64,000 bases of DNA, taken from an uncultured bacterium (lineage in GTDB: Bacteria; Elusimicrobiota; Elusimicrobia; Elusimicrobiales; Elusimicrobiaceae). The notes under the pieces are model-generated. The model searched no databases. It was not told where the DNA came from and worked only from the letters and a program-made list of their open reading frames with translations. The stretch is from NCBI GenBank assembly GCA_949294095.1, contig CASFFZ010000010.1, positions 124,001 through 188,000 of the forward strand. Reading direction: 5' to 3'. Positions 6,942 through 26,184 of this stretch are shown here, piece by piece. The first letter of the stretch is position 1, and the number at the start of each line of letters is the position of its first letter. A program made the position numbers and the translations under genes.

Positions 6942-7499
6942 TTACATAGCATAAATGTGAGTTCGGCCCCAGCTAGATACGATTTCCGGATTAGTCAGGC
7001 CCATAATTTTCTCGCAATAATTTCGGCTTCCCCTGCGGTCATAATAACTTACCCGGCAATATAACCCCGTAACCGATTTATAACGGTCCGGTTCAAAAAA
7101 ATAAGAAAACCCCACCGTTAGATATTTATCATCTTGTCTAATCAGATCCACAGACGCTCCAAAGCTGTTGCTTTGTACACGGCTGGGATTAACCGTCATT
7201 TTCCAGAAATCGTTGGAGCGTACCGCGGCGCTCTCCGCCTGCCAAGGAATATCTATGTCTAAATCTTCAAAAGACGAGGCATACGTACCATTGGCCAAAT
7301 AGTACACCTGATTAGCTTGCACCACACTTTTGAATAGGGTAAGCGCTTCCGCCGCGCGGGATTTTTCCACCGCTTTTTCATACGAGGGCAATGCCACCGC
7401 CGCTAATATGCTGATAATTAATACCACCACTAACAGCTCTATAAGCGTAAATCCGGCGTTTTTAGTGCCGGGGAAGGATTTTTGATAAATTTTTGCCAT
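6942..7499 (-). CDS. Type IV pilin-like protein (pilin 1)
   Basis: 185 residues from the ATG at 7499. The prepilin motif is NAGFTLIELLVVVLIISILA: a 14-residue positively charged leader (MAKIYQKSFPGTKN), cleavage after Gly, N-methylated Phe, and Glu5. The mature region carries the EKAVEKSRAAEAL helix and a C-terminal globular domain with two Cys (CRV and CEK) that could form the D-loop disulfide. No Shine-Dalgarno is present; the ATG lies in the loop of a perfect 15-bp inverted repeat (7479-7518) flanked by a 12-base homopolymer. An in-frame TTG two codons upstream is unlikely as start. The leader is nearly identical at nucleotide level to that of the pilin at 24886-25413. No assembly genes are adjacent, so it may be a minor pilin or a variant pilin. 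Confidence 0.9.
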   Translation of the reverse strand: MAKIYQKSFPGTKNAGFTLIELLVVVLIISILAAVALPSYEKAVEKSRAAEALTLFKSVVQANQVYYLANGTYASSFEDLDIDIPWQAESAAVRSNDFWKMTVNPSRVQSNSFGASVDLIRQDDKYLTVGFSYFFEPDRYKSVTGLYCRVSYYDRRGSRNYCEKIMGLTNPEIVSSWGRTHIYAM

Positions 7500-7518
7500 A
7501 CGCAAAATTTATCAAAAA
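7479..7518 (-). promoter_or_regulatory. Perfect hairpin with pilin 1 start codon in its loop
   Basis: On the minus strand TTTTTGATAAATTTT, loop GCGTATGGCA, then AAAATTTATCAAAAA: 15 perfect pairs with the ATG in the loop. The left arm is the end of a 12-T tract. The gene has no Shine-Dalgarno, so the stem-loop may present or hide the start codon. The same arrangement precedes the pilin at 25413. Confidence 0.8.
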
Positions 7519-7707
7519 AAAAAAACAAATCAACCCCCTTGCCGGGGGCGGAGCCAGAGCCTGGCCTCCCGATTCTATGCCCCTTCGTACGATTGGTTTA
7601 GGCCACACTGTTTCTGTACTGTTGCACCCTTGCGAAAGGCCAGAGCCTAGCCGCAAAACCTCATAAGGAATTTTCCTTTTATGTCATTGTTGTTTATCCG
7701 CCCTTTT

Positions 7708-7805
7708 GTCCTGCTTATAAAAAGCCTTCCAAGACGAGTGGAAATTTTATTGTTTGAGCATAGCGAGTTATAAAATTTCCGGCTTGGAAGAGATTTTTAT
7801 AGGAC
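7708..7805. repeat. 98-nt imperfect palindrome with compensatory changes (copy A)
   Basis: Outer stem GTCCT-TATAAAAA with TTTTTATAGGAC, middle stem CTTCCAAG with CTTGGAAG, inner stem GGAAATTTTAT with ATAAAATTTCC, tip TGTTTGAGC-ata-GCGAGTT. The copy at 25770-25867 has the same length, but the middle stem reads CTTTGCGG/CCGCAAAG: four adjacent pairs changed on both sides. Confidence 0.82.
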
Positions 7806-7826
7806 GATGGGGCGGCGGTCTTTTTC

Positions 7827-7854
7827 GTACTTTTTCTACCGCCAGAAAAAGTAC
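7827..7854. repeat. 11-bp inverted repeat hairpin (copy A)
   Basis: GTACTTTTTCT, loop accgcc, AGAAAAAGTAC. Twin at 25889-25916 with loop ggcggc. Both are preceded by GGGGCGGCGGTCTTTTTC. Confidence 0.8.
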
Positions 7855-7980
7855 CCCTTCTAGGGGATGGCACTCTATGTCCGTTCATCAGACTGGTTTA
7901 AGCCACACACGCCATACTCCCCAATTGCTGAATCTCCCTTATTCAAACCAATCAGTGAATCTTGGCTTATAAAAATAAAG

Positions 7981-24769: not shown

Positions 24770-24800
24770 AAAAGCCCGGCAAATTAACGCCGGGCTTTTT
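24770..24800 (+). terminator. Terminator after the DJ-1/PfpI gene
   Basis: AAAAGCCCGGC, 8-nt loop, GCCGGGCTTTTT. Confidence 0.88.
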
Positions 24801-24827
24801 ATTTTTAACGAATGATATAATCTTCCC

Positions 24828-24884
24828 CTCTATAAGCGTAAATCCGGCGTTTTTACCGCCGAAAAATGATTTTTGATAAATTTT
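24828..24884 (-). pseudogene. Pilin leader remnant (5' fragment of a pilin gene)
   Basis: 57 bp that match the leader of the pilin at 24886-25413 (its copy is 25351-25407) at 55 of 57 positions. It encodes KIYQKSFFGGKNAGFTLIE and stops matching exactly after Glu5; what follows is unrelated sequence leading into the DJ-1 terminator. It begins one base after the stop codon of that pilin, has no start codon and lacks the left arm of the start-codon hairpin. The same 57-bp block is also in pilin 1 (7437-7493) with changes in the middle. It is a remnant of a deleted tandem pilin or a recombination site. Confidence 0.82.
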
Positions 24885-24885
24885 C

Positions 24886-25413
24886 TTATTGTTCGCTATA
24901 ACAGCGGCAAGAACGCCCTTCGTTGCCACAGCCTTCATGCCAACTGTCATTTTGCATTTCCGAACGGCAAAGAGCATCCCCTTCAAAATTAGTGTCCGAG
25001 TAAGAACAACATAAACGACGTGTATCTGAAAAAAATTGATGAAGTGTGATATACGTGTTTTCCCCTTTATTAAGACTGCAAATCACCCGAGGATTTTCTA
25101 TATTCATCCTACATGATGAAAAAGGGAAAATCAGTTTATTATCTTTTATATTAGTATTAGAAAATCCAATATCCAAATCTTCAAAATTTTCCGTATAGAA
25201 ACTGTTCGCCATATAGAAAGACTGTGCGGCCTGGGTAATAGAGCGTGCCGCTGTAACTGCCTGGGTAAAACGAGCGCGTAAAACCGCTTTTTCATATTGC
25301 GGCACAGCAATCGCCGCCAATATGCCGATGATTAAAACGACTACCAACAGCTCTATAAGCGTAAATCCGGCGTTTTTTCCGCCGAGAAATGATTTTTGAT
25401 AAATTTTGTTCAT
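24886..25413 (-). CDS. Type IV pilin-like protein (pilin 3)
   Basis: 175 residues from the ATG at 25413. Leader MNKIYQKSFLGGKNAG, then FTLIELLVVVLIIGILAAIA with Glu5, helix QYEKAVLRARFTQAVTAARS, and a Cys-rich C-terminal half (about nine Cys, including RLCCSYS and RSCRCYSEQ), more than the usual one pair. No Shine-Dalgarno; the ATG lies in the loop of a perfect 16-bp inverted repeat and next to a 13-base homopolymer. It is AT-richer than its neighbours. A pilin-leader fragment lies directly behind it and a repetitive module in front. The N-terminal 57 nt are almost identical to that fragment, while the mature part is unlike the other two pilins. Confidence 0.9.
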   Translation of the reverse strand: MNKIYQKSFLGGKNAGFTLIELLVVVLIIGILAAIAVPQYEKAVLRARFTQAVTAARSITQAAQSFYMANSFYTENFEDLDIGFSNTNIKDNKLIFPFSSCRMNIENPRVICSLNKGENTYITLHQFFSDTRRLCCSYSDTNFEGDALCRSEMQNDSWHEGCGNEGRSCRCYSEQ

Positions 25414-25432
25414 AGCCAAAATTTATCAAAAA
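25393..25432 (-). promoter_or_regulatory. Perfect hairpin with pilin 3 start codon in its loop
   Basis: Minus strand TTTTTGATAAATTTTG, loop GCTATGAA, then CAAAATTTATCAAAAA: 16 perfect pairs, ATG in an 8-nt loop, no Shine-Dalgarno. The left arm merges into a 13-T tract (25428-25440), a candidate for slipped-strand variation. Confidence 0.82.
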
Positions 25433-25769
25433 AAAAAAAACGAGTCAACCCCTTGCCGGGGGCAGGCAGTTTGGCCCTGCCCAAGGGGGGTTGCTAATTA
25501 CGGTGCTTACGCAATAGGGAACAACTCGTCGGGGATATTTATGCAAGGGGCGAGCCGCCTAGGCCAAAGCTTGGCCTCCCAACTCTATGCCCGTTAACTC
25601 GATTAGGTTAAGCCACACGGTTTCTGCACTGTCGCGCTCTTACAATATGACAAGCCAGAGGTTAACCTCTCCAGCCAATAAGATATTTCCTTTTTATGCC
25701 ATTGCCGTTTAGATACGCTGTCAACAAGGTTTTCCCCTTTTGATGTTGTTGCCGTTTATCCGCCCCTTT

Positions 25770-25867
25770 GTCCTGCTTATAAAAACCCTTTGCGGCAGAG
25801 CCGAAATTTTATTGTTTGAGCGAAGCGAGTTATAAAATTTCCGGCCGCAAAGTGATTTTTATAGGAC
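25770..25867. repeat. 98-nt imperfect palindrome with compensatory changes (copy B)
   Basis: Same outer and inner stems as 7708-7805 and identical length. The middle stem CTTTGCGGC/GCCGCAAAG replaces CTTCCAAG/CTTGGAAG; the tip is GAGC-gaa-GCGAG instead of GAGC-ata-GCGAG. Confidence 0.82.
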
Positions 25868-25888
25868 GCCGGGGCGGCGGTCTTTTTC

Positions 25889-25916
25889 GTACTTTTTCTG
25901 GCGGCAGAAAAAGTAC
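25889..25916. repeat. 11-bp inverted repeat hairpin (copy B)
   Basis: GTACTTTTTCT, loop ggcggc, AGAAAAAGTAC; twin of 7827-7854. Confidence 0.8.
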
Positions 25917-25920
25917 CCCC

Positions 25921-26184
25921 TTGCCGGGGGCAGGCACTCTAGGCCCGTTAAGATGATTGGTTTAAGCCACACTGCTCCAGCGATACCGCGCACTTCCGAA
26001 AAAAACCCTTGCCGGGGGCAGGCACTCTAGGCCCGTTAAGATGATTGGTTTAAGCCACACTGCTCCAGCGATACCGCGCACTTCCGAAAAAAACCCTTGC
26101 CGGGGGCAGGCACTCCAGACCCATTCATCCGATTGGTTTGAGCCACACCGCTTCTGCACTGTCGCGCTCTCACAAAACGGCAGG
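25921..26184. repeat. 88-bp tandem repeat, two identical units plus one diverged unit
   Basis: Units start at 25921, 26009 and 26097 with TTGCCGGGGGCAGGCACTC. The first two are identical over 88 bp; the third keeps the first part and the GATTGGTTTGAGCCACAC box, then diverges into TTCTGCACTGTCGCGCTCT, a string also found at 25621-25640. Each unit has a short CCCTTGCCGGGGG hairpin. From 26185 to the next terminator nothing is recognisable. Frames across the units read repetitive peptides and are not genes. Confidence 0.9.

Follow-up and report, generated by a model that had tools for sequence, protein, structure and literature searches.

The two long palindromes that we followed up in the window, by which we mean the whole 64,000-nucleotide stretch of DNA that was analysed, are probably copies of a dispersed, non-coding and non-autonomous mobile DNA element. 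Support for this reading comes from a range that spans many phyla, arms that stay paired despite the turnover of their sequences, a conserved apex, a phage site that is occupied in some phages and empty in others, a copy on a plasmid, and an orientation that does not depend on the neighboring genes. It is unusual for a non-coding repeat to have a near-invariant apex of 19 nt carried on varying paired arms in groups as distant as Elusimicrobiota, Gammaproteobacteria, Bacteroidota and Clostridia.

The first-pass annotation of the window had described two 98-nt palindromes, at 7708-7805 and 25770-25867, each upstream of a pilin gene, with middle stems that differ at four adjacent base pairs changed on both sides. 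These observations are borne out. Both copies have the same fold, the middle stem is CTTCCAAG/CTTGGAAG in one and CTTTGCGG/CCGCAAAG in the other (C-G to T-A, C-G to G-C, A-T to C-G and A-T to G-C), and the neighboring genes are type IV pilins on the minus strand (PF07963). When folded as DNA on the given strand the 98-nt cores have z-scores of -6.75 for copy 1 and -5.80 for copy 2, and in each case none of 200 shuffles equalled the native sequence. Beyond the core there is an outer stem, in which CCGCCC at 7698-7703 pairs with GGGCGG at 7810-7815 in copy 1 and CCGCCCC at 25760-25766 pairs with GGGGCGG at 25871-25877 in copy 2. Both palindromes are parts of a 181-nt block with 85% identity between the copies, which includes a second hairpin downstream. 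The parts of the two copies and their neighboring genes are the following.

7698..7815, plus strand: copy 1, full palindrome with outer stem (sequence, and fold of the core 7708-7805)
7751..7769, plus strand: copy 1 apex, TGTTTGAGCATAGCGAGTT (cross-phylum conservation)
7827..7854, plus strand: copy 1 downstream hairpin, GTACTTTTTCT..AGAAAAAGTAC (sequence; the arrangement recurs across phyla)
25760..25877, plus strand: copy 2, full palindrome with outer stem (sequence, and fold of the core 25770-25867)
25813..25831, plus strand: copy 2 apex, TGTTTGAGCGAAGCGAGTT (sequence, cross-phylum conservation)
25889..25916, plus strand: copy 2 downstream hairpin (sequence; the arrangement recurs across phyla)
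6942..7505, minus strand: neighbor of copy 1, a type IV pilin gene with the element on its upstream side (PF07963, match at 7389-7463; weak PF16732, ComP_DUS)
24886..25419, minus strand: neighbor of copy 2, a type IV pilin gene with the element on its upstream side (PF07963)

In the 1.48-Mb Elusimicrobiota genome that contains the window (G000), the tip GTTTGAGCNNAGCGAGTT is found 14 times, one copy having one mismatch. These 14 copies share the tip and represent three stem types. One has CTTCCAAG in its arms, another has CTTTGCGG, and the third is marked by CTTTCAAACG and AAGGCCCTTTTATT; several copies of the third type are at contig ends, which fits repeats breaking assemblies. A strict search pattern for the tip motif, TGTTTGAGC-RNA-GCGAGTT, identifies 25 of 341 genomes of the phylum as carriers, 22 of them in the genus of the host. 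With a pattern that lets the tip extend, 33 of the 66 genomes of the genus are positive with up to 22 matches per genome, and the reversed-pattern control gives zero matches in every genome of the genus except one. A scan of other bacteria with one genome per species returned at least 115 further stretches with the motif. Among the matches listed these belong to Pseudomonadota, Bacteroidota, Bacillota, Desulfobacterota and relatives, Nitrospirota, Nitrospinota, Gastranaerophilales, Patescibacteria, Fusobacteria, Aminicenantes and others, giving a range of at least ten phyla that includes Haemophilus, Variovorax, flavobacteria and Clostridia. The Variovorax plasmid pVarWS11_2 bears one copy. 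Viral contigs also carry the motif, as true elements in Pasteurellaceae phages and also in a prophage repeat without paired arms, which accounts for many of the IMG/VR matches and was left out of the element counts. At a number of Clostridia loci (L101, L104, L122, L147 and others) the apex is on a single, much longer hairpin without a downstream hairpin, and this form is possibly a second class of the element.

The conservation of the apex has to be read with the search in mind. Among 93 non-redundant copies from many phyla the leading T and 16 of the 18 remaining apex bases are fixed, but those 16 were set by the search pattern, so that conservation in a cross-phylum sample picked by its apex is partly by construction. 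The evidence independent of this sampling is given by the T at position -1 of the motif, the arms and the extended tips only. The base at -1 is absent from the search pattern and, among the matches listed from other phyla, all 120 of 120 loci have a T there; given that this includes loci with weakly pairing arms, nearly all of the motif matches are genuine members. The tip stem ranges from 2 to 7 bp in length with pairing kept throughout, and among the 27 distinct long apices there are 25 with a stem of 4 bp or more, compared to a mean of 4.5 and a maximum of 12 when shuffled. While the stem varies in these long apices, TGTTTGA and GAGTT are constant, both having been fixed by the pattern in that search; one copy in genome G074, detected without the pattern, has TGTCTGA..GAGTT. 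Short apices are mostly GC-RNA-GC or GC-GNNA-GC. The dominant loops are GNA and GNNA, and GTTA, GTCA and GGTA among them are not GNRA loops. When a loop of this kind sits on two or more G-C pairs, the result is an extraordinarily stable and nuclease-resistant DNA mini-hairpin with a GNA or GNNA tip (Hirao and colleagues; PMC4686876), and the apex of the element fits this type. Additionally, the GA/GA flanking the tip on the apex strand could form tandem sheared pairs.

Outside of the apex it is the pairing, rather than the sequence, that is retained. In 92% of the Elusimicrobiota copies and 54% of the others the arms are more complementary than the 99th percentile of mismatched arms. The mean arm score is 16.5 for Elusimicrobiota copies and 12.1 for those of other genomes, where mismatched arms score 5.5, and in distant phyla the arm sequences are unrelated yet paired. 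The first-pass annotation had taken the four compensated pairs as strong evidence for selection on pairing or for a shared structured ancestor. That pairing is under constraint is strongly supported, given that arms pair across phyla and the tip stem covaries, but selection is not the only possible source of a compensated block like this one. Template switching at palindromes can yield compensatory changes of several bases in a single event (PMC8794818), and since it can rewrite both arms together, the four-pair block alone does not prove selection. Such events do seem to occur here, as suggested by a copy in G074 with one arm directly duplicated and by the apex deletions in three phage copies described below. 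The covariation counts from the alignment of the 93 copies (A3), which was prefiltered on arm pairing and mixes two pairing registers one base apart, illustrate the covariation and do not test it. The smaller downstream hairpin is present in most copies outside Clostridia, and within it TACTTTT is found in 20 and AAAAGTA in 18 of the 93 copies, where the maximum in shuffles is 10. A common 5' end motif, TTGATGTTGTT, was considered and rejected; it is present in phage and Elusimicrobiota copies and lacking in the other phyla.

Movement of the element is seen in P2-like phages of Haemophilus (L351, L360-L398), in which it is located, second hairpin included, between genes M and L. This site is occupied in L360 and its relatives and empty in L367, L368, L383 and L388. 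The occupied and empty versions of one phage site indicate that the element inserts. In empty phages of the L367/L368 type the M protein is 97-98% identical and the DNA downstream of the site is near-identical; the left boundary is blurred, with the end of gene M varying too. In L365, L366 and L376 only the apical hairpin has been lost, from between its arms. The number of copies at a site can also differ, as in a fabH-/fabD-like interval with a head-to-head pair in H. aegyptius and one exact-apex copy in H. quentini. Close doublets, 139-255 bp apart, are head to head in 12 of the 14 listed, and in 10 of 12 when duplicate loci are removed. Most of the Pasteurellaceae copies form head-to-head pairs with a spacing of about 160-245 bp, and in Haemophilus such pairs are found at sites like ilvC, fabH-fabD and gyrA-menD. 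With respect to replication, the orientation is 52 versus 60 in the contigs of other genomes. The apex is on the C-rich strand in 14 of 14 copies in G000 and mixed in G015, G048 and G066, and given these mixed genomes a general replication-strand rule is unsupported; the pattern in G000 may follow the orientation of the pilins.

In G000 the element is associated with pilins. This genome has 65 matches to the pilin N-terminal motif PF07963 in its 1.48 Mb, and 11 of the 14 element copies are no more than 1 kb from a pilin start, a zone that makes up 7.7% of the genome (p about 2e-10, or 2e-5 when this background is tripled). Near-pilin copies are also found in G048 (6 of 8) and G066 (5 of 8), with the pilin on the opposite side of the element relative to G000. 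None of the 11 copies in G015 is beside a pilin, and no pilin linkage was seen in the other phyla. The link to pilins made in the first-pass annotation thus stands for G000, G048 and G066 and fails in G015 and elsewhere, and the location unrelated to pilins, which it had named as the sign of a generic REP-like repeat, is for this reason largely what we find. Confinement to pilin neighborhoods holds for most copies in G000 and fails in G015 and the other phyla, and the frequent adjacency to pilus genes characterizes certain lineages without defining the element. At the site of copy 1, the related genome G074 has a similar pilin with a different upstream region and no element, and G071 has a different pilin and an element copy with an extended tip. 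G018 was considered as a clean empty site for copy 1 and rejected; it seems to keep the end of the pilin gene, and this apparent remnant looks like a loss of pilin and element together. At the L055 slot, which is intergenic and follows a terminator, G060, G072, G074, G063 and G027 have different pilins, G018 and G071 have none, and G074 has an element copy. The differing occupants indicate that pilin loci are hypervariable slots, which look like interchangeable cassettes, and that the element shares this traffic without being confined to it.

The unit of the element would be a single long palindrome, imperfect, in which the apex is fixed and the paired arms vary, followed in most phyla by the smaller hairpin. 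The plan of the apex is TGTTTGA, then a short GC stem closed by a loop of the GNA or GNNA kind, then GAGTT. We infer that the element is active as single-stranded DNA, in the folded form of its apex strand, and a putative enzyme acting in trans would recognize the apex and move the element. Copies near pilins in G000 may have multiplied because the regions upstream of pilins are tolerant sites, or sites prone to recombination, and duplicate along with the element. The non-Watson-Crick pairs favor the apex strand (G.T 75 versus A.C 37, and G.A 171 versus C.T 36), part of the G.A excess perhaps coming from purine-rich internal loops, but a stricter test on isolated mismatches is only marginal (23 versus 11, p=0.058). 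Several results speak against a mobile element. Within 3 kb of the element we found no gene family that recurs across phyla, apart from a cluster of 9 members and ORFs that belong to the repeat, no target duplication was made out, and there is no general replication-strand bias, which lagging-strand transposition of single-stranded DNA might predict. Taken to its fullest form, the model would be of one ancient family of single-stranded DNA hairpins with members in at least ten phyla. An undescribed enzyme acting in trans would move them by reading the TGTTTGA/GAGTT internal loop under a hyperstable d(GNA) mini-hairpin, and hairpin-templated replication would rewrite the arms. We put this forward tentatively, at somewhat under an even chance. 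As far as can be judged from sequence, the conservation of the apex would imply that a specific folded strand is read by some enzyme, or some process, that is itself widely conserved.

Other explanations can be weighed against the mobile element. A regulatory RNA or DNA element specific to pilins and selected for its pairing, as the first-pass annotation read it, would account for the near-pilin counts in G000, G048 and G066, but not for G015, nor for the relatives in Haemophilus that have the element between metabolic genes and inside a phage. The orientation relative to the pilin is reversed between G000 and G048/G066, and the copies in other phyla have no orientation preference relative to genes, so we consider this reading improbable. 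A transcribed structured RNA, such as a terminator or processing element gained repeatedly by horizontal transfer, would explain the covariation and the G-U-like pairs favored on one strand, as well as the apices with a loop of GNRA-like form, GAAA for example, and the 25 of 75 copies outside Elusimicrobiota that are at convergent gene ends. Against it, copies in tandem gene contexts are sense in 20 cases and antisense in 20, and this indifference to the neighbors argues against a leader or terminator RNA. Searches against Rfam, with the window at gathering scores and with 14 loci at E<=0.5, left the element without a match, which agrees with the earlier statement that no family was recognized, and the main loops, GNA and GNNA, are of the type that is extraordinarily stable in DNA. 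A transcribed RNA is thus unlikely.

A REP/REPIN mobilized by a REP-associated Y1 (HUH) transposase shares the palindromic form, the intergenic location and the frequent inverted doublets with our element. Y1_Tnp is over the cut-off in 36 of 49 element-bearing genomes, and with the strict pattern the element was associated with one Y1 subgroup in the genus (6 of 8 versus 16 of 58). With the relaxed pattern this co-occurrence is gone (p=0.75). Of the 33 genomes of the genus that carry the element, 26 lack a Y1 over the cut-off, G000 has no Y1 gene, and none of 40 Y1 loci, at 1.5 kb each, has the apex, so Y1/RAYT was rejected as the cognate transposase. REPs and REPINs are further defined by a tetranucleotide, GTAG or GTGG, positioned 0-2 nt to the 5' side of the hairpin (PMC6006769), and in the 5' 90 nt of the 93 copies these are not enriched (GTAG 24 and GTGG 21, against 27.1 and 23.9 when shuffled). 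We give this explanation only a small chance. A neutral palindrome kept by template switching, in which compensated changes need no selection, rests on a documented mechanism (PMC8794818) and suits the adjacency of the four changes, the arm duplication in G074 and the apical hairpin lost in three phage copies. The evolution of the arms would follow from it, but a fixed apex, a downstream hairpin and the spread to phages, a plasmid and ten phyla would not, and as a full account it is very improbable. As a cause of the covariation, template switching is compatible with a mobile element.

The mobile element that we favor resembles several known systems. Like REP, REPIN and BIME sequences with TnpA-REP (RAYT), its copies are short, intergenic, non-autonomous and dispersed palindromes with frequent inverted doublets (PMC6006769, PMC3116915). 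It reverses the design of a REP, in which the foot is fixed and the hairpin variable, by having a fixed apex and varying arms without enrichment of the GTAG/GTGG foot tag, and it differs in having at most 22 matches per genome, not hundreds, and no adjacent Y1 gene. MITEs, NEMIS and ERIC are likewise small, non-coding inverted repeats between genes, but have conserved terminal inverted repeats, where here the apex is conserved, the arms vary and at least ten phyla are covered. The attC sites of integrons are recognized as a folded single strand and keep their structure while the sequence varies. The element also retains structure despite sequence variation, but the conserved boxes of attC are at the foot and here it is the apex that is conserved. 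The intergenic dyad sequences (IDS) of H. influenzae (Read and Farley 1997, Read et al. 2000, as cited in PMC4144887) were proposed to aid the movement of pilus gene loci. They resemble our element as dyads in intergenic DNA of Haemophilus, by description and not by sequence, and the family may include them, which we offer as a lead only. A search of the literature for the letters of the motif returned only primers and unrelated sequences. The recurrence of the element beside variable pilin genes, together with this old dyad proposal in Haemophilus, makes a link between the palindrome and the shuffling of surface genes testable.

The pilin upstream regions have other recurring features as well. 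One is an 88-nt module (..GGTTTAAGCCACAC..), in places an exact tandem repeat upstream of pilins, the core of which has 25 matches in the genome at up to 2 mismatches, compared to 13 for the reversed control. It is found in the window at these positions.

25918..26181, plus strand: three tandem copies of the 88-nt module, flanking the element and not part of it (repeat families D2, D6)
7554-7641, 7847-7908 and 25564-25651: further copies of the module in pilin upstream regions

Another is TTGAC..(T)8-13..GATA, of which there are 26 distinct examples in pilin upstream regions, often abutting the start codon. It is found in the window at 25424-25448 on the minus strand and at 7514-7525, the first pilin of the window having the variant TTGATTTG, and similar sites are present in L044-L078. 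A homopolymer within the spacer of a promoter-like sequence suggests that pilin expression may be phase-variable. At 24780-24990 a truncated pilin start (..GFTLIEGKIISF..) adjoins the second pilin and is apparently a remnant N-terminal fragment. The pilin beside copy 1, at 6942-7505, is barely at the Pfam cut-off for ComP, the receptor pilin for DNA uptake sequences, with 27.4 versus 27.3 bits.
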